Below are positions 1 to 35,170 of a stretch of 44,990 nt of DNA, one piece after another (position 1 is the stretch's first letter; the number at the start of each line of letters is the position of its first letter). Made by a program: the position numbers and the translations under genes. Source of the stretch: a candidate division FCPU426 bacterium (GTDB taxonomy: Bacteria > Oederibacteriota > Muellerivitia > Muellerivitales > Muellerivitaceae); the NCBI GenBank assembly GCA_003152075.1, contig PLZG01000055.1, positions 1 through 44,990 of the forward strand, in the 5' to 3' direction. Below the pieces are notes generated by a model, which was not told the DNA's origin, made no database searches, and saw only the letters and a program-made list of their open reading frames with translations.

Positions 1-377
1 CCCAATAGTTCCAAACTGATAAGGGTAAGGGTATGGGTTCCTAAAGCGATCCATGCCCTCTCGTGGGCCTGGGAGTCGGAGGACCATAAAAGCTCGGTAA
101 CCGGGTAAACCGTCTTCGCGATTCCCGCCAGGTTCACGAAAAACAAGCCCGAATAATCGTGCGTGGTCACGATCAATCCCCAACCTAACGCGTCCACTCC
201 GGCGGTCGACCAGCCGTAGATATCCGAATGGTCCTGGAACATTTCAGTGTAAGCCCAAACATAGTAATCTCCCACGATGATGGGCACGGCGATGAGCTCA
301 TTTTTCGCCGGGGCCTCCCTAGGGAAAATCGCCAAAAACAATAAGACCATTAACAATCCTTTTATAACTTCCTTCAT
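1..377 (-). CDS. Secreted protein of unknown function, 3' part cut off by the window
   Basis: The reverse strand is open from an ATG at 377 to the window edge, about 125 codons with no stop. The first ~25 residues form a signal peptide: MKEVIKG, then a hydrophobic run of Leu/Val/Phe/Ile, ending in a probable APA/KN cleavage site. The mature part begins with NELIAVPIIVGDYYVWAY and is rich in Tyr, Trp, Thr and Gly, as in an exported beta-rich protein. The ATG overlaps the stop of the upstream lipoprotein gene as ATGA, so translation is probably coupled. I do not recognise a family. The coding call is firm because of the signal peptide and overlap; the function is unknown. Confidence 0.75.
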   Translation of the reverse strand, partial: MKEVIKGLLMVLLFLAIFPREAPAKNELIAVPIIVGDYYVWAYTEMFQDHSDIYGWSTAGVDALGWGLIVTTHDYSGLFFVNLAGIAKTVYPVTELLWSSDSQAHERAWIALGTHTLTLISLELL

Positions 378-1045
378 TCATCCTCGCTTTCAGGGGTGGC
401 GGTGGGTGTTGGTGTTAATGTAGCCGTTGGTTTGAGCGTGGGCATAAGGCTTGGAGTCGCCGTTGGAGTGGGATAAACCCATAGAACGTTCATCGGCAAG
501 CTTATTTTGGAATAAATATAAATGAAGACCGGGTAATAAAGCGGGGGTCCGCAATCGGTCCCTTCCAAATATCGGTAAAGCGGAATGGTGATGGTGTAGC
601 AGTCCGTGTTCATTTCATCGCCGAAAGGCAGCGTCTTTTGGCAATTGCTATCAATGGGCACCACCAGGAAATAAGCCATATCCGAATCCCAATTAATGAT
701 GGGTTTTTGGGTGAGGGAGGAAGTGGTGACGTTACCCATATCCACGGAAGAAAGATAATTCCACATCCCGTCAAAATCCACTTGATTTCCAATAAGTTGA
801 GGCCCGTTTTGGCCCAGCGGCGAAGTTTCTCCGATGAGGGCGGTAATCAAGCGGTGAGGATTGGTATGTTGGGGGCATTTATCCACAACATTGTGGGCGT
901 AGGGATCGACTTCCCCCGGATGTTGGACCTGGACCCGGGTATCGTTAATATCGACGCAACCCGAAAACCAAGCGGGGGCCAAAATCAAGCCGCTGACAAG
1001 GACTAACTTTTTCAAATGAGTAAAAGTATTTTGGATTCGAATCAT
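374..1045 (-). CDS. Lipoprotein with Pro/Thr-rich C-terminal tail (paralog of the next gene)
   Basis: A 223-residue predicted lipoprotein. The signal sequence runs to a lipobox FSGC at about residues 27-30, so the mature protein should be lipid-anchored at Cys30, followed by VDINDTRVQVQ. The body has scattered Cys residues and a Tyr-rich stretch (CYTITIPLYRYLEGTDCG). The last ~30 residues are a PTPTATP-type tail capped by ESEDE. It is a clear paralog of the 1042-1725 gene: both share the lipobox context, the VDIND start of the mature protein, the CYTIT motif and the acidic cap. Start and stop overlap both neighbours by 4 bases (ATGA). No enzyme motif is visible and the function is unknown. 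Confidence 0.85.
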   Translation of the reverse strand: MIRIQNTFTHLKKLVLVSGLILAPAWFSGCVDINDTRVQVQHPGEVDPYAHNVVDKCPQHTNPHRLITALIGETSPLGQNGPQLIGNQVDFDGMWNYLSSVDMGNVTTSSLTQKPIINWDSDMAYFLVVPIDSNCQKTLPFGDEMNTDCYTITIPLYRYLEGTDCGPPLYYPVFIYIYSKISLPMNVLWVYPTPTATPSLMPTLKPTATLTPTPTATPESEDE

Positions 1046-1725
1046 TCATTCTCGCTTTCGGGCGTAGGCGTGGCTTTCTCTAAGCTTGTCGGACGGGGCG
1101 TGGCAGTGGGTGTAGCCGTCGGTAGGAGCGTGGCTGTAGGAATCGGCGTGGGATAAACCCATTGACCTATCACCGGTAAATTGACCTTTGGATAAATATA
1201 AATGAAAACTTGGAATGCGCTCGGGGATCCGCAATTGGTCCCTTCCAGATACCGGTAAATGGGCATCGTAATGGTATAACAATCCGTGGTCATTTCATCC
1301 CCGTAGGGTTTAGTTTTTTCGCATGAATTACTTGCCGGTATCACATTAAAAAAGGCCACCTGCTGGCTCCAATCAACAATCGGTACCTGGGAAAGGGCGG
1401 AAGTTTGTGTCCTCCCGTCATCCAAAACGGAAACATAAACCCACCATTTTTCAAATTCGGCCTGGGAGTCCATTTCATGACTCCCTAATTGAACCAGTGG
1501 AGAGGCGTTTCCTGTTTGTCCCAGGATTAAACGGTGGGGATAGGCTTGCGGCGTGCATTTATCAATAACGTTCCTGGAATAGTTTTCGATCTGGCTCGGC
1601 GCCTGCACCTGAACTTTAGCGTCATTGATGTCCACGCAGCCCGTGAACCAGGCAAGGGATGAAACCAAGCCGCAAACAAGTGAAGTTTTTTTCAAACGAA
1701 TAAAGGAATTTGGGATTCGAGCCAT
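1042..1725 (-). CDS. Lipoprotein with Pro/Thr-rich C-terminal tail (paralog)
   Basis: A 227-residue predicted lipoprotein and paralog of its downstream neighbour. I place the start at the ATG at 1725 (MARIPNSFIRLKK) because it aligns with MIRIQNTFTHLKK of the paralog; an in-frame ATG at 1740 and a longer ORF to 1794 are less likely. The lipobox is FTGC near residue 30, followed by VDINDAKVQVQ. The C-terminus is a TPTATPTATP-type tail ending ESENE. The gene follows the PAP2-fusion gene by about 75 bases and overlaps the next gene by ATGA. The function is unknown; tandem duplication of the gene is evident. Confidence 0.85.
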   Translation of the reverse strand: MARIPNSFIRLKKTSLVCGLVSSLAWFTGCVDINDAKVQVQAPSQIENYSRNVIDKCTPQAYPHRLILGQTGNASPLVQLGSHEMDSQAEFEKWWVYVSVLDDGRTQTSALSQVPIVDWSQQVAFFNVIPASNSCEKTKPYGDEMTTDCYTITMPIYRYLEGTNCGSPSAFQVFIYIYPKVNLPVIGQWVYPTPIPTATLLPTATPTATPRPTSLEKATPTPESENE

Positions 1726-1800
1726 TATTTCGCCGATCATGAAACTGAGGTGCGGGTGAAGATTTGGACGCTGCCCAGGGGGCCGGAGTGTCAACCCCAG

Positions 1801-18525: not shown

Positions 18526-20667
18526 TCAATGTTCCAGCACCCCTTGTTTTTCGATTTCATCGGCCATTTGGATAGCTTCCTTGGACAGGGTGAGGTTCAA
18601 AGAGGCCGCTTGTGCCTTATAAAGATTCTGGCGGGCCTTCCCCATTTCATTCTTCCGCAATTGAATGCTCCCCAGTTTGTAATAAAGATGAGCGGCAGGA
18701 TAGCCCTCCGTGATGGCTTTCTCAAGGGAAGCCACGTCCGCCGGGTAATTCCTGTCCCGGTATAGGATACCCTCCACCTTTTCCCAATAGCAGGCTTCCA
18801 ACAAGGGGTCCCCGGCCAGCAGTGGCTTTACCCGGGCGAAGTCGGCCAGAAAAGGCTCACCCTTCACCCCATCGGCCAGGTTAAGCCAGTGCCAGTCCAA
18901 CTCCCGGAAAAAAGGATAGACCCGGACCCAATTCTCAAATTCGGTCTGGTTGCCAGCATTTATGGGGATAATCCCCAACATCAATCCTCCATCCGGCAGG
19001 TTCTTGTCCTGGTCCAGGTAAAACCATTGGGCATCGGGAAATCTTTTTTCAAGGAAGGGTTTTTCATTAACGTTCAGCATCAAGGCTGCCCACTTGACCT
19101 CCTCATTCCTCCGTTTTGGATTAATCAATGCGTTGAAGCCATAGGTCCCCACCGTCAAGGTCTGGTCATAGGGCGAGGGAGTAAAGTCCGAAAAAAAGAG
19201 CCCAGGTCCTTGGGTTGATTGCTTGAGCAAGATTTGGAAGGCAAGGTAGCTGTTCAAGGGTTTCGCCGGATGGGCCCCCAACAAAACGCCCTGGGAAAAA
19301 TCGATCGGATGGGGCCTTAAGCGGTTGAGGTTGCTCCAATCCAATCCTAAAGAAACAAGCATGAAGACTGATAAAACCAGGACCCGGTGTTTGGAAGGCA
19401 ATTCCATCAACAACCGGTGAGCCCCTAGCGCCGCTCCCGCCAGCAAAAACGGGAGAATGAGGATGACCCTGTAAAGTTCCACATTCAGGGTTAAAAATCC
19501 TGGGGCTAGGCATAAAAGCCCTCCCACCCAAGCCCACCTGACTACCCCACGTGACCGGTTCAAGTAACTTTCCAAGGCCCCGATAAAAAACGCCCCCGTC
19601 AGCAGGGGATTCAGCATTCCTCCCCAGAGGGCGGTATAGGCGGGTGCATCCTCAAAACAACCCCAGAAAGGCGTGGTTAAATAAGAGAACCAAGCCGTGA
19701 TTTGGCCGGACACCGGGACATATCCTCTCGCCGCCGAAACACCCCAGATATGGTGGCCAAATCCTTCCTGGAATATCGCCCAAAGAAACGGAACGTTTGT
19801 AAGGAAAAAAACGGTTCCGAACCAAAGGAAAGGCCCCCAACTCTTGGATCGCTGGAAGAACCCTTCAGAAAATATCAGGATGAAAACCCAAAGCGCGAAA
19901 ACCGGCCAAGGGGTGAAGGTAAAGGAGCCCAACCCAGTTGCGACCCCCAACACAACCGCCGAAGTGGTCTTGCCCCGGACATCCTTGGCCTTGAGAAAGG
20001 AGCCTAGCTTCCATAACACCAGGCAGGCCCAGAGGGGAAGCAGAACCCCCTCGTGGCAGAACCGACCGTAGTAAAGGGGCCAAAAGGACAATGCCCAAAA
20101 TAAAAAGAAGATAAAGGACATGGACTTTGAAAAATAAGACCGGGCCGCTTGGTAGCTAAGAAGTACGGCGAGGAAGGAAAACCCGGCGGGAACCAGCCAT
20201 AAACCCGTCAGGGGATTTTCAGTATTTGGAACAATAAAGGATAGAACCCAGATTAAAAGGGGCGGCACCTGGCCAAAGGTGTAAAGGAAGTGCCAGTTCC
20301 AATGGCGGGCCAAGTCCAGCGCGAACCAGCCGTTTATTCCCTCGTCGGTGTTAAGCCATAGCGCCAAATCGGTTAAGTTGTAGAACCGGAGGATAAAAGC
20401 CGCGAGCGCCACCAACCCAAAAACCCATAAAGCGGGTCGAGGTATTAATTCTTTTTCATAAAGGGGAATGACGGATTTAGGGGATAGCCGAGCCACCCAG
20501 AAGGCCAGTAAAAAAGGAAGCGCCAGTCCGAATAAGCCGATAAAAAGTTTGGAAGCGATCGAAAGCGGGGTATAGGAAAGGACCGCGCTGACTAGGGCGA
20601 AGAGGAAAAAAGTGGGCCATGGCCGGTAAGAAATCCGGATTTCAGAGTCACCCTTGGCCTTTTTCAA
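18526..20667 (-). CDS. GT-C fold membrane glycosyltransferase-like protein with C-terminal TPR region
   Basis: About 713 residues with roughly a dozen membrane helices in the first 430, then a soluble part. An early acidic motif LWLNTDEGINGWFALDLA sits in the first periplasmic loop, the usual place for the catalytic Asp/Glu of GT39/GT83-type enzymes using polyprenyl-phosphate sugars. The C-terminal ~130 residues read as two TPR-like helix pairs (YWEKVEGILYRDRNY..., YYKLGSIQLRKNEMGKARQNLYKA). It is a full-length paralog of 33065-35170. The start is probably TTG at 20667, six bases after AGGA; GTG at 20673 is the alternative. Sugar and acceptor are unknown. Confidence 0.85.
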   Translation of the reverse strand: MKKAKGDSEIRISYRPWPTFFLFALVSAVLSYTPLSIASKLFIGLFGLALPFLLAFWVARLSPKSVIPLYEKELIPRPALWVFGLVALAAFILRFYNLTDLALWLNTDEGINGWFALDLARHWNWHFLYTFGQVPPLLIWVLSFIVPNTENPLTGLWLVPAGFSFLAVLLSYQAARSYFSKSMSFIFFLFWALSFWPLYYGRFCHEGVLLPLWACLVLWKLGSFLKAKDVRGKTTSAVVLGVATGLGSFTFTPWPVFALWVFILIFSEGFFQRSKSWGPFLWFGTVFFLTNVPFLWAIFQEGFGHHIWGVSAARGYVPVSGQITAWFSYLTTPFWGCFEDAPAYTALWGGMLNPLLTGAFFIGALESYLNRSRGVVRWAWVGGLLCLAPGFLTLNVELYRVILILPFLLAGAALGAHRLLMELPSKHRVLVLSVFMLVSLGLDWSNLNRLRPHPIDFSQGVLLGAHPAKPLNSYLAFQILLKQSTQGPGLFFSDFTPSPYDQTLTVGTYGFNALINPKRRNEEVKWAALMLNVNEKPFLEKRFPDAQWFYLDQDKNLPDGGLMLGIIPINAGNQTEFENWVRVYPFFRELDWHWLNLADGVKGEPFLADFARVKPLLAGDPLLEACYWEKVEGILYRDRNYPADVASLEKAITEGYPAAHLYYKLGSIQLRKNEMGKARQNLYKAQAASLNLTLSKEAIQMADEIEKQGVLEH

Positions 20668-20689
20668 ACCCACTTCCTAACAGGCGTTC

Positions 20690-30712: not shown

Positions 30713-31225
30713 TTATTGAACGATGAGAGTTACGGCCATGCCCGTACAGTTTGTATTAGGACAAACCGTATTACTTGCGCCCAGGTTGCATGAGCCATGG
30801 TTGCCGCAATGGAAGTGATAGGTCCCAATACCCAACACTTGGGTTGTGGGAAAGGAGAGGTTCCCCGCAAGGAGACAACTTGACGTTCCATTGTCGAGGT
30901 AGAGCGGGTGGATACCCGCGTTGGAACTGTCCCAAACGGCGGACGTGCCGACACTGATCGTGACAGGAGCGCTTACGGTGACCCCAGTAACGGCGTAATG
31001 ATAACTTGGGGAAGAAAAAATCACTCCAAAGGTAACCCCAACCGGCACAGGTGTGTTCGTCGGCGTCGCGGTGGGACTGTTGGTGGCTGTGGGTGAGCCG
31101 GTAGGAGTGAAAGTAGGGGTAAACGTAGGGGTGGAATTCGGACTCGGGGTTGAAGGGTTGCTGCTACAAGCCAAAGGAATACCTGCCAAGACAAATAAAG
31201 CCAAAAGCGCGAAAGATAATTTCAT
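30713..31225 (-). CDS. Cupredoxin-like lipoprotein on a PT-rich stalk
   Basis: A 170-residue predicted lipoprotein. The signal sequence ends in a lipobox-like ACSS (Cys20). A stalk of Thr/Pro/Ser (TPTFTPTFTPTGSPT...) spans residues ~24-60. The globular domain resembles plastocyanin/pseudoazurin folds: VGTSAVWDSSNAGIHPLY with the first His, YHFHCGNHG with Cys and second His, and CTGMAV with the axial Met, the His-Cys-His-Met set of a type-1 copper site. Two more Cys pairs may form disulfides. It could carry electrons at the cell surface. The ATG follows GAGGT. Paralog of the next gene. Confidence 0.85.
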   Translation of the reverse strand: MKLSFALLALFVLAGIPLACSSNPSTPSPNSTPTFTPTFTPTGSPTATNSPTATPTNTPVPVGVTFGVIFSSPSYHYAVTGVTVSAPVTISVGTSAVWDSSNAGIHPLYLDNGTSSCLLAGNLSFPTTQVLGIGTYHFHCGNHGSCNLGASNTVCPNTNCTGMAVTLIVQ

Positions 31226-31304
31226 GGTTTACCTCACAGTCGATTTACTAAAAAGAAGAAAATCCCGCCTGCCAAGTCATGCATTGGAAAATGAATACAT
31301 TGTT

Positions 31305-32108
31305 TTATTGGACGACAAGGGTCGCCGCCAGGCCTGTACAGGATCCGTTTACGCAAGTAGTAGCTGGCGGACTTGAACAGACGCCATGAAAGCCGCAATG
31401 AAACCGATAGGTCCCGACTCCCAAAATTACCGTCGTGGGAAAACCCGTTCCCTGGTTATTGATCACACAAGAGGAAGAATTATCCAAGTAAAGAGGATGA
31501 ATGCCCCCATTGGAATTATCCCAAACAACGGACGTAGTAACGCTAATTGTTATGGGGGCGCTAACCGCCGGGCCACTGGTTCCAGTGGTGCTGTAACGGT
31601 AGACACCGAGGCTTGGGCTATAAACACTGAAGATAACCCCAACCGGTAATGGTGTGTTGGTGACGGTGGGAGTCGGGCTATTGGATGCCGTTGAGGAAGG
31701 GGTAAGAGTTGAAGTTACCGTGGGACTATTGGTTGGGGTAGAAGTTGGCGTGGTCGTGGGGCTATCGGTAGCAGTGGGTGAAATGGTAGGAGTCGGAGAA
31801 TCGGTTGGTGTTTGTGTGGGAGTGGAAGAAGGAGTCATGGTTGGGGAATTGGTTGTCGTGGAGGAATGGGTGGGCGTTGGGGTTTGGGTTGGCGAGGAGC
31901 TGGGGGTTCTCGTGGGCGTTTGCGTGGGGCTGTTGGACGCGGTTGGGGTGATGGAACCCGTGGGAGTTTTAGAAGGGGTCGAGGTAGGAATCGGGGTAAA
32001 GGTGGAAGTGGAATAAGAAGTTGGATTCGTAGTGTAGGAGTTGCTTCCGCAGGCCCATGGCAGGGCGCAAAGGATTAAAAAAAGCGAGATAAGAACAAAA
32101 GGTTTCAT
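31305..32108 (-). CDS. Cupredoxin-like lipoprotein on a long PT-rich stalk, axial Met replaced by Leu
   Basis: About 267 residues. The start at 32108 (MKPFVLISLFLILC) is chosen because it begins a signal sequence ending in WACGS; the longer frame to 32228 adds non-signal residues. A PT/S stalk of ~120 residues (TPTRTPSSSPTQTPT and similar) joins the lipid anchor to the cupredoxin-like domain: VVWDNSNGGIHPLY, YRFHCGFHG and CTGLAATLVV. The Met of the paralog's CTGMAV is Leu here, so a three-ligand copper site is predicted. Otherwise closely related to 30713-31225. Confidence 0.84.
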   Translation of the reverse strand: MKPFVLISLFLILCALPWACGSNSYTTNPTSYSTSTFTPIPTSTPSKTPTGSITPTASNSPTQTPTRTPSSSPTQTPTPTHSSTTTNSPTMTPSSTPTQTPTDSPTPTISPTATDSPTTTPTSTPTNSPTVTSTLTPSSTASNSPTPTVTNTPLPVGVIFSVYSPSLGVYRYSTTGTSGPAVSAPITISVTTSVVWDNSNGGIHPLYLDNSSSCVINNQGTGFPTTVILGVGTYRFHCGFHGVCSSPPATTCVNGSCTGLAATLVVQ

Positions 32109-32279: not shown

Positions 32280-32792
32280 TTACTGTTTCCCCAGGTTTTG
32301 CGCTTGGGGCGGGGGCATTTGGAAAGCCCCAGCAGGGGCAAAGGGCATGGTCTGTTTCCCAGCCTTGGAAAGGTCCGGCTTTATTCCGTTGCCCAAGGCC
32401 GCTTGCATTTTGGTCACGTGTTCCTTCCAGTAGGGGCAATTGGGGTCCTTGACAATGCATTCGGCGACCGACATTTTGCAGTTACAGGCGCAGGTTTCGG
32501 TATTGAAGGCCGAAATAACCTCAGCCTTTTTGGTGTCCGAGACGCTTTTGAAGTTGATCATGGTAAAACCGGACTCGGGAACCGGAATCGGCGTGCCCAT
32601 AGGGACCGGAGTGGGTAATTGGGAATAGGGTGTTGGTTTCCCGGTATTCATTTGGACCGAATAGCGGCCACCCACGAATGACGCCGCTATCAGGATGATG
32701 ATGCCAGTGGCGTACAGGATTTTTTTCTGGGCCTCGGGCGGCAGGACTTTTTCTTTGGGTTCAATCTCGCCTGGCGGGTTATCGTCGATCAT
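32280..32792 (-). CDS. Membrane-anchored protein with a Cys-rich CxCxC motif
   Basis: A 170-residue protein with a cytosolic Lys/Glu/Pro-rich start, one membrane helix (ILYATGIIILIAASFVGG), then a short Pro/Thr linker and a periplasmic part. The motif CACNCKMSVAECIVKDPNCP contains five Cys in a CxCxC...C...C pattern like that found at the start of some DsbA/thioredoxin-type and metal-binding envelope proteins, but no thioredoxin domain follows. It is Gln/Pro/Met-rich at the C-terminus. It lies upstream of and parallel to the cupredoxin genes, so a role in copper or thiol handling is possible. ATG at 32792 behind GAGGG. Confidence 0.8.
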   Translation of the reverse strand: MIDDNPPGEIEPKEKVLPPEAQKKILYATGIIILIAASFVGGRYSVQMNTGKPTPYSQLPTPVPMGTPIPVPESGFTMINFKSVSDTKKAEVISAFNTETCACNCKMSVAECIVKDPNCPYWKEHVTKMQAALGNGIKPDLSKAGKQTMPFAPAGAFQMPPPQAQNLGKQ

Positions 32793-33064: not shown

Positions 33065-35170
33065 TTGGCTATCCCTTTAACTTTTTCCTATGGTTACAAA
33101 AATAACCGTTTTATTTATTTTTTAGTTTTCGTCGTTACGAACGGGTTAATCTCTTTTCTTAATCTTCCAGCTTATGTCCAATTGGGTTTAGGGTTAATCG
33201 GATTGGTTTTGCCTTTTTATTTCGCCATTCGAACGAACAAGCCGTTTCAGCCCGGCCACCCACCTATTTACGCTCAAGAACTATTTGGAAGTTTTCCCTT
33301 AATCATCTTGGTTTTATGTTTTTCAATTTTTGGATTTTTGAGATTTTACAAATTAGAATCACTGTTTGTTTGGCCAACTGGGGACGAGGGTTGGTTTGGC
33401 ACCATGGCTATCGAATTAAGCCAGCACTGGGTTTGGAAGTTCTTTTATTCATCCGGCCAGTTACCACCTTTGTCGACCTGGGCGGCGGCGGGCTTATTGA
33501 AGCTGGGTTATTCCCCCCTTTTCTGCCTTTGGTTCCCCTCGGCTTTTGTTTCATTAATGACGGTAGTGGTGGGGTATTTTGCCGCGCGCCAATTTTTCTC
33601 AAAGTCTTTTTCCTTGATGGTGGCGGGCCTTCTGGGTTTCAGCTTTTGGCCCCTTTTTCTTGGACGTTTGTGCCAGCCGGGAACCTGGCTTCCCCTTTGG
33701 GAATGTGGCTGTTTTTTATTTTTGGGTCGTTTTCTTAAAACCAATTCCACCAAAAACCAGGCGAAAAAGGCGTCTCTTTTAGGATTCGTTACGGGTTTGG
33801 GTTCTTGGACCTTCACTTCCTGGCCGGTAGTCGCTTTATTAATGATCTTGACCGTAATCAAAAAGACCCTTTTTTCCACCGAAAAAAACATTAAAGCCTT
33901 CTTACTTTTCTCATTCTTCCTCTCCCTTTCCCTCGGTCCATTTTTGATGGCCATTACCTCGGAGGGTTTTGGAGATCACGCTTCGTCGGTCGCGGCTTGG
34001 AGCGGATGGTTTCCTTGGAGGCATCAAATACCGGTCGTAATCCATTACCTGACTTCGCCCTTTTGGGGGACTTTTGACGCTAGCGCGGCCTACACCCCGC
34101 CCTTCTGGGGGTTTTTAAACCCACTCTTGTGTTCCTTTTTTTTCCTCGGCCTGTTGGAAATCCTTCCCTATCGCAACGCGCCCCTAATTCGTTGGTTTTT
34201 TTTCGCTCTTCCTGTTTTTTTTCTCCCCGGTCTTCTGACGATGAACATTGAGGGCTTTCGCATAGTCCAAATTTTTCCGTTACTGATTTTTATGGCGGCC
34301 GTGGGTTTTGCGTCTTTTCTTTCTTTATTTTCCCCTTCGCGGAGGTATCTTTTTCTTCTGGCCGTTCTTTTGTTTTCAACCACCCTTGACCTTTACCAAC
34401 TCACCCAGCCGTTCACAAGTTACGAGGGTCACCCTGAAAATTTACGGGACGGAAGGTCTTTGGAAAGTTTTAAGGCCTACCAAATTCTTTTGTCCATGAG
34501 TCAACAGAACGGCCCCGGTTTAATTTTTACCGATTTCGATTACGATTGTCCGAACAATACGACGCTTTCGGTCATTACCTATCCCTTTAACGCGGCCCGG
34601 AATCCCCGCCTTGATGCTTCCCAGGTAAAATGGGCGGCTCTTTTTATTAACGTCAATTACCGGCCCTATCTCCAAAAACGCTTTCCGGATTCCCGGTGGG
34701 AGTGGGTGGCCGAGGATCTCAACGTTAATGACGGAGGGTACGCCGTGGTTATCATCCCCATTTCCGCGGAAAATCGCGGAGTGATCGACCAATGGACTAA
34801 GGCACATTCCCTCATGCAAGAAACCAATTTGTTGTGGTATTCCCAAAGCCGCTTAAATTGGCCCGCGATTTTTCAATCGTTTCAAAGCGCCTATCCCCTG
34901 TCGCAAACCGATCCCTTTTTGGAAAGTATCTATTGGGAAAAAATGGCGGCCTATTATTATAAAAAAGTTGATTTCAAGAATTGTATCAACGCTTATCTTC
35001 AGGCGATCAATCGAGGTTATCCGACTGCGGGATTATGTTTTAAACTGGGGGACTTACTTTTGGCGCTAAAGCTTCCCTCAGACGCGGTTAATGTTTTTCA
35101 AAAAGCCACTCAGGCGCCGCTGGATTTGACGAAGGCTTCCGCCGGCCTGTTTCAGTTGCAACACCGCTAA
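33065..35170 (+). CDS. GT-C fold membrane glycosyltransferase-like protein with C-terminal TPR region (paralog)
   Basis: A 701-residue paralog of the 18526-20667 protein over its whole length. Matching points: first-loop acidic motif FVWPTGDEGWFGTMAIELSQHW, helix FLRFYKLESL, the HQIPVVIHYLTSPFWGTFDASAAYTPPFWG region and the C-terminal TPR-like helices (YWEKMAAYYYKKVDF, LCFKLGDLLLAL). The reading frame opens at a TTG (33065), 11 bases after GGAGG, so the start is uncertain. The DNA is visibly richer in A/T than its paralog, with many TTT and TTA codons. Substrate unknown. Confidence 0.83.
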   Translation: MAIPLTFSYGYKNNRFIYFLVFVVTNGLISFLNLPAYVQLGLGLIGLVLPFYFAIRTNKPFQPGHPPIYAQELFGSFPLIILVLCFSIFGFLRFYKLESLFVWPTGDEGWFGTMAIELSQHWVWKFFYSSGQLPPLSTWAAAGLLKLGYSPLFCLWFPSAFVSLMTVVVGYFAARQFFSKSFSLMVAGLLGFSFWPLFLGRLCQPGTWLPLWECGCFLFLGRFLKTNSTKNQAKKASLLGFVTGLGSWTFTSWPVVALLMILTVIKKTLFSTEKNIKAFLLFSFFLSLSLGPFLMAITSEGFGDHASSVAAWSGWFPWRHQIPVVIHYLTSPFWGTFDASAAYTPPFWGFLNPLLCSFFFLGLLEILPYRNAPLIRWFFFALPVFFLPGLLTMNIEGFRIVQIFPLLIFMAAVGFASFLSLFSPSRRYLFLLAVLLFSTTLDLYQLTQPFTSYEGHPENLRDGRSLESFKAYQILLSMSQQNGPGLIFTDFDYDCPNNTTLSVITYPFNAARNPRLDASQVKWAALFINVNYRPYLQKRFPDSRWEWVAEDLNVNDGGYAVVIIPISAENRGVIDQWTKAHSLMQETNLLWYSQSRLNWPAIFQSFQSAYPLSQTDPFLESIYWEKMAAYYYKKVDFKNCINAYLQAINRGYPTAGLCFKLGDLLLALKLPSDAVNVFQKATQAPLDLTKASAGLFQLQHR

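Follow-up and report, generated by a model that had tools for sequence, protein, structure and literature searches.

The window analysed here, a stretch of 44,990 nucleotides that forms one contig of a 4.1 Mb genome from the candidate phylum FCPU426, encodes two neighbouring proteins in which a Pro/Thr-rich stalk lies between an apparent anchor and a small domain with copper-site motifs. The first-pass annotation described them as a pair of lipid-anchored cupredoxins, one with the axial Met replaced by Leu, and suggested that they serve as an extracellular electron relay or a copper-sensing system. The locus raises the question of whether these domains are type-1 copper proteins and, if so, what the Met/Leu difference and the stalks contribute.

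Two tandem genes and their predicted copper site

Genes A and B were tandem paralogs, both on the minus strand, with 79 bp between them (Table 1). The mechanical open reading frame of gene B extended to 32228, while the ATG retained here was preceded by GGAG and opened a normal signal peptide. Each protein displayed a signal peptide with a terminal lipobox-like Cys, then a Pro/Thr stalk and, at the C terminus, a domain of some 110 aa. The anchor region, the stalk and the IHPLY and FHCG-H motifs were present in both paralogs, as had been described. The copper domains shared 60% identity (E=2.8e-31), a resemblance that is thus not due to chance, with IHPLYLDN and FHCG.H common to both. Their C-terminal ends (CTGMAVTLIVQ in A and CTGLAATLVVQ in B) agreed with the CTGMAV described for the shorter protein and the CTGLAATL described for the longer one.

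Table 1. Positions of the two genes, their predicted functional elements and the two ligandless relatives.
Feature	Position	Strand	Basis
Gene A, stalked cupredoxin, axial Met, 170 aa	30713..31225	-	family profile
Gene B, stalked cupredoxin, axial Leu, 267 aa	31305..32108	-	ATG at 32108, GGAG upstream
A signal peptide	31169-31225	-	sequence
A lipobox-like Cys20 (IPLA|C), predicted lipid attachment	31166..31168	-	sequence; lipidation inferred
A Pro/Thr stalk, residues 21-59 (39 aa)	31049..31165	-	P/T/S score
A His1 (IHPLY), predicted Cu ligand	30908..30910	-	invariant in 21 copies; aligns with plastocyanin/amicyanin His
A Cys, His1 +11 residues, predicted structural disulfide Cys	30875..30877	-	10-15 residues after His1 in 21/21 ligand-bearing copies
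A Cys-x2-His (CGNH), predicted Cu ligands 2 and 3	30797..30808	-	invariant; aligns with plastocyanin C-x2-H
A Cys-rich insertion from last His to axial Met, 3 Cys in 19 residues	30740..30796	-	conservation and deletion test
A axial Met (CTGM)	30737..30739	-	aligns with plastocyanin axial Met once loop removed
B lipobox-like Cys (LPWA|C)	32049..32051	-	sequence; lipidation inferred
B Pro/Thr stalk, about 128 aa	31650..32033	-	P/T/S score
B His1 (IHPLY), predicted Cu ligand	31497..31499	-	family alignment
B Cys-x2-His (CGFH), predicted Cu ligands	31386..31397	-	family alignment
B Cys-rich insertion, 18 residues, 3 Cys	31332..31385	-	loop conservation
B axial position Leu (CTGL)	31329..31331	-	family alignment
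Ligandless cupredoxin-like copy C70b, adjoins ligand-bearing copy	L007 935-1369 (G000:C70)		
Ligandless cupredoxin-like copy, adjoins ligand-bearing copy, all four structural Cys kept	L039 1171-1815 (G004:C76)		

Taken singly, A and B were not recognised as cupredoxins by Pfam or NCBIfam; A alone had no Pfam cupredoxin match with its loop intact or removed, and no PDB match by phmmer. A profile built from the sequences of 20 relatives (A2) matched plastocyanin 1pcs in the PDB (E=4.5e-9), as well as amicyanins and nitrite reductases. His1 and the Cys-x2-His pair fell on the known ligands of plastocyanin and amicyanin, where the alignment ended. When the insertion was removed, leaving four residues ahead of Met/Leu (a spacer fixed in advance), the de-looped profile A7 matched 1pcs at E=6.4e-12 and 49.0 bits, with an alignment passing through the axial Met and the last strand. 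The control profile A8, made from the same sequences with the tail reversed, reached 34.1 bits and its alignment ended at the His. Matches to PF00127 rose likewise from 9 of 20 members intact to 17 of 21 de-looped.

The gain in alignment, together with the negative reversed-tail control, places Met/Leu at the axial position to the extent that sequence can tell, and the Cys-rich insertion accounts for the family having escaped annotation by Pfam. The cupredoxin identity, and the exchange of axial Met for Leu in one paralog, were therefore borne out by profile and alignment, and a His-Cys-His-Met/Leu site is well supported by the sequences. The long His-Met loop could change the geometry of this site, which makes extrapolations of both the axial assignment and the shift of 0.1 V given below. 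AlphaFold models from four sequences were poor (pLDDT 54.5 and 55.0), and Foldseek returned noise, with no cupredoxin among the matches. Comparing profiles with the ordinary cupredoxin-like proteins that these genomes encode, which have a short loop (L050-L054; C-x2-H-x2-M), gave no informative match (probability 0.9%). A CuA site was rejected, the motif C-x3-C-x3-H-x2-M being absent, as was a fragment of a multicopper oxidase, since the domains are small, occur singly and each come with a signal peptide.

In each of the 21 ligand-bearing copies of the family, a loop of 12 to 23 residues, exactly three of them Cys, lay between the last His and Met/Leu, unlike in known cupredoxins, whose ligand loops are short. 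The same 21 copies kept the standard Cys-x2-His spacing and a fourth Cys 10 to 15 residues (mostly 11) after His1. The three conserved loop Cys had been absent from the first description of the locus. In the simplest predicted pairing, the Cys after His1 would form a disulfide with a single Cys of the loop, leaving the remaining two to bond with each other.

A family of one order with a switching axial residue

Searches with the 20-sequence profile retrieved 23 family copies: eight in the window genome, five in G001, four each in G004 and G006, and one each in G005 and G008. A and B are a tandem pair as had been stated, but within a set of eight in their genome, and the underlying family is of more interest than the pair. 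Copies were found in six of the nine genomes of the order to which the window genome belongs, and the profile search, run on 36 further genomes of the phylum, detected none there. Two narrow patterns, which distant relatives elsewhere could escape, were scanned against 84,980 species genomes and returned only two loci, both from this order (L044 and L045). The protein of L044, from an FCPU426 metagenome-assembled genome, was the same as that of G005, and L045 matched the locus of G006. The L045 record, JAJPJW010000086.1, is titled 'Proteobacteria bacterium Centralia_MAG_561', a title that looks wrong, as G006 belongs to the same FCPU426 family of genomes as the window. No relative was found in viral or plasmid collections, nor was any family with such a Cys-rich loop described in the limited set of literature searched. 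As judged from sequence, this is a lineage-specific family, missed by standard databases, of predicted envelope-tethered type-1 copper proteins.

The ligands His, Cys and His occurred in this order, without variation, in 21 of the 23 copies. The exceptions were C70b of the window genome and a copy next to G4_C76, which lacked all three and had also lost the axial Met (replaced by Phe and Pro). As the ligandless copies lost Met/Leu and one of them kept the four Cys, Met/Leu tracks copper and the extra Cys track the fold. Some members may work without copper.

Among the 21 ligand-bearing copies, the axial residue was Met in 16 and Leu in five (B, C20 and C37a in the window genome, and G6_C1 and G6_C135). 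On a tree built without the axial column, this distribution needed five changes, at least three of them forced by well-supported branches, so several Met-to-Leu changes occurred and B is not unique. A and B were sisters (99/97). The Leu-type C37a and the Met-type G6_C21 were near neighbours in the tree and lay in matching gene neighbourhoods, with shared genes that were named by eye as PASTA-type, radical-SAM methyltransferase-like, HisG-like, TPR and epimerase-like. Repeated natural switches of this kind, in closely related pairs (A with B, and C37a with the copy at the syntenic locus of G006), make both the effect and the evolution of the exchange directly testable.

Exchange of axial Met and Leu is a textbook route to tune blue-copper proteins, and few natural single-domain cupredoxins with an axial Leu are known. 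The earlier statement that loss of the axial Met raises the potential of type-1 copper proteins agrees with published work: the M121L change in azurin raised the potential by 86-115 mV (PMC5698706), the reverse change L499M in a laccase lowered it by 140 mV (PMC4220974), and an axial Leu is linked with high potential in ceruloplasmin (PMC4059628). By analogy, Met-to-Leu would raise the potential by about 0.1 V here, its application to B being an extrapolation. The electron affinity of the family thus seems to have been retuned repeatedly by a single amino-acid change.

Tethers, gene neighbourhoods and the likely role

The lipoboxes of A (...AGIPLA-C-SS) and B (...ALPWA-C-GS) carried Ala at -1 and a non-canonical Pro at -3 relative to the standard [LVI]-x-[GAS]-C. 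The lipid anchor claimed for them stood in part: the lipobox-like Cys follows the signal peptide, but with this Pro, lipidation is likely only. Most members displayed a Cys after a hydrophobic stretch, with Ala, Gly or Ser at -1 and often Pro or another residue at -3. The usual architecture (N-terminal anchor, stalk, copper domain) was reversed in C37a and G6_C21, where the signal peptide was followed by the copper domain, the stalk and a C-terminal FlgD-Ig/T9SS-tail-like domain (FlgD_ig, E=4.4e-12 and 5.5e-9). G1_C219 started in the same way, with the copper domain first, and no end domain was seen in it. In both predicted architectures, the copper domain sits at the free end. TIGR04183 tails were frequent across the order, with 22 of them in the window genome. 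The copper domain would face the periplasm or the outside, surface exposure being uncertain; the lipid-modified azurin Laz faces the periplasm in gonococcus and was reported as surface-exposed in meningococcus (PMC6277709).

Family copies were solitary in unrelated neighbourhoods (purine biosynthesis for C70, housekeeping genes for C20, chromate-resistance genes near C84), and neither a redox partner nor an operon recurred across the neighbourhoods examined. General-purpose carriers therefore fit better than a dedicated relay or sensor. Beside C20 lay genes for an exported protein rich in Met and His and for a small one rich in Met, His and Cys, and the Met-type C84 lay near YceI-like, DUF1259, ChrB and chromate transporter genes (L059 140-5200, G000:C84). 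In the window, genes around A and B included those for MsrA, a TPR protein, a kelch protein, a subtilase and a glutathione peroxidase.

Several other genes drew attention. Directly upstream of B (32280-32792, minus strand) lay a gene whose membrane-anchored product is rich in Cys (CACNC...CPYW), includes a Pro-rich linker and has no Pfam match. Relatives of this protein were found only in G002 and G006, the latter about 4.6 kb from the Leu-type G6_C135 on the same contig. It was considered as a partner of B and rejected, being also present in G002, which has no family member. Two large membrane proteins without Pfam match (18526-20673, minus strand, and 33065-35170, plus strand) were alike in size and N-termini, and a 700-aa open reading frame near a Leu-type copy of G006 (L066 3691-5793) was similar. 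At 374-1794 (minus strand), two putative lipoproteins (...SGCVDIND... and ...TGCVDIND...) were tandem paralogs.

COX1 was present in all nine genomes of the order and in 4 of the 36 others of the phylum. Six of 13 COX1-positive genomes carried the family, vs none of 32 COX1-negative ones (Fisher p=2e-4), an association confounded by ancestry, as the family-bearing genomes form one clade, and to be taken as a hint only. The family marks an oxidase-bearing branch of this candidate phylum; G002 (98% complete) possessed COX1 and no family copy. COX2 with the CuA motif was also present in the order. A link with Cu nitrite reductase was rejected, since no match in the order exceeded the curated cut-off; one protein from the second family of the order (L073, G008:C33:10962-11855) fell slightly under it (289 vs 296 bits).

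The reading that we favour, with a probability of about 0.6, is that of tethered envelope type-1 copper electron carriers tuned at the axial position. What the sequences show directly is the family itself, its conserved ligands, loop, architecture and distribution, and the switching at the axial position; copper binding, disulfide formation, lipidation, cellular location, electron transfer and its partners are predictions. The signal peptide would export the protein, and the tether would be the lipobox-like Cys or, in some long relatives, the C-terminal FlgD-Ig/T9SS-tail-like domain. A Pro/Thr stalk of very variable length would hold the copper domain at its free end. Copper would be bound by His-Cys-His and an axial Met or Leu, and the Cys-rich segment that separates the last His from the axial position, with predicted disulfides closing it, would lie at the copper site. 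The most likely task of the proteins would be to carry single electrons towards CuA-type oxidases or other redox enzymes, either in the periplasm or on the outer surface of the order's aerobic members. One genome such as that of the window would then hold carriers of two potential classes.

An unlikely rival is envelope copper acquisition, buffering or detoxification, in which copper would be held or handed over and the stalks would extend the reach. It would suit copies untied to any respiratory operon, as well as the neighbours of C20 and C84, but the one-copper type-1 arrangement (His, Cys, His, Met/Leu) was kept, the recurrent Met-to-Leu change alters potential without an obvious use in storage, and no Cu exporter or regulator was noticed near most copies. 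We consider it a little less probable still that the domains are disulfide-braced beta-sandwiches mounted on stalks for surface scaffolding or recognition, with copper optional, like early nodulin-like phytocyanins. The two ligandless copies (one with all four extra Cys), the wide spread of stalk lengths, which a simple P/T/S score puts between 3 and more than 500 residues, and the large expansion within one lineage speak for such modules; against this, 21 of 23 copies keep the four ligand positions despite only 29-61% identity to A across 20 aligned domains, which points to selection for copper. A dedicated two-step relay outside the cell, or a copper sensor, made up of A and B with stalk-matched potentials, as the tandem arrangement on one strand and the combination of one Met with one Leu had suggested, is very improbable: stalk length and axial residue were unrelated over 21 copies (Mann-Whitney p=0.68), sister positions in the tree make A and B local duplicates, Leu arose repeatedly and the other Leu copies are solitary, no dedicated partner was found and neither a sensor nor a multiheme cytochrome adjoins the pair, and no sensing component was present in the neighbourhoods examined.

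Comparison with known systems

The family members resembled plastocyanin and amicyanin (PF00127) in profile, in the ligand order His...Cys-x2-His...Met and in the GMxGxVxV end, and these were the best matches among solved structures. They differed in the spacing from His to axial Met (4 in plastocyanin, 12-23 with three Cys in the family), and in adding a Cys after His1, a lipobox-like Cys and a Pro/Thr stalk. The respiratory cupredoxin AcoP of Acidithiobacillus ferrooxidans also has an unusually long C-terminal ligand loop, but it is the Cys-to-His segment that is lengthened there (6 residues), whereas the family lengthens the His-to-Met segment and makes it Cys-rich (PMC4059628). The type-1 sites of fungal laccase and ceruloplasmin share a natural axial Leu linked to higher potential, but belong to multidomain oxidases, while the family consists of single small domains.

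The closest systems in design are the plant phytocyanins and the Laz protein of Neisseria. Laz has an N-terminal low-complexity stalk and an azurin-type domain that is not known to carry a Cys-rich loop or an axial Leu. It is a bacterial lipid-anchored cupredoxin (PMC6277709), as the family members would be, but with the azurin-type Cys-x4-His instead of the Cys-x2-His seen in all 21 ligand-bearing copies. Azurin was not among the PDB matches listed for the family profiles, intact and de-looped.

The Cys of phytocyanins are arranged around the ligand His in a different way from those of the family. Uclacyanins, stellacyanins and early nodulin-like proteins nevertheless offer a similar overall design, with an anchored P/A/S/T-rich stalk, conserved disulfide Cys, a variable axial residue and members without copper ligands (PMC3184959, PMC4499708). 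In rice, the four ligands are retained in 38 of 62 phytocyanins and key ligands are missing from 24, the disulfide Cys are conserved, most are predicted to be GPI-anchored and 38 bear glycomodules in the P/A/S/T-rich region (PMC3184959, PMC4499708). Unlike the family, with its predicted lipoprotein-type anchor and Met/Leu, they use a GPI anchor and axial Met/Gln. Since no phytocyanin was among the PDB matches listed for the intact and de-looped profiles, only a likeness in design is claimed, and it is probably convergent. More tentatively, and less probably than not, the family might represent a phytocyanin counterpart in one FCPU426 order, expanded, stalk-mounted and braced by a disulfide-closed loop, whose recurrent Met/Leu flips would tune the envelope carriers of each cell over about 0.1 V for extracellular or trans-envelope electron transfer.
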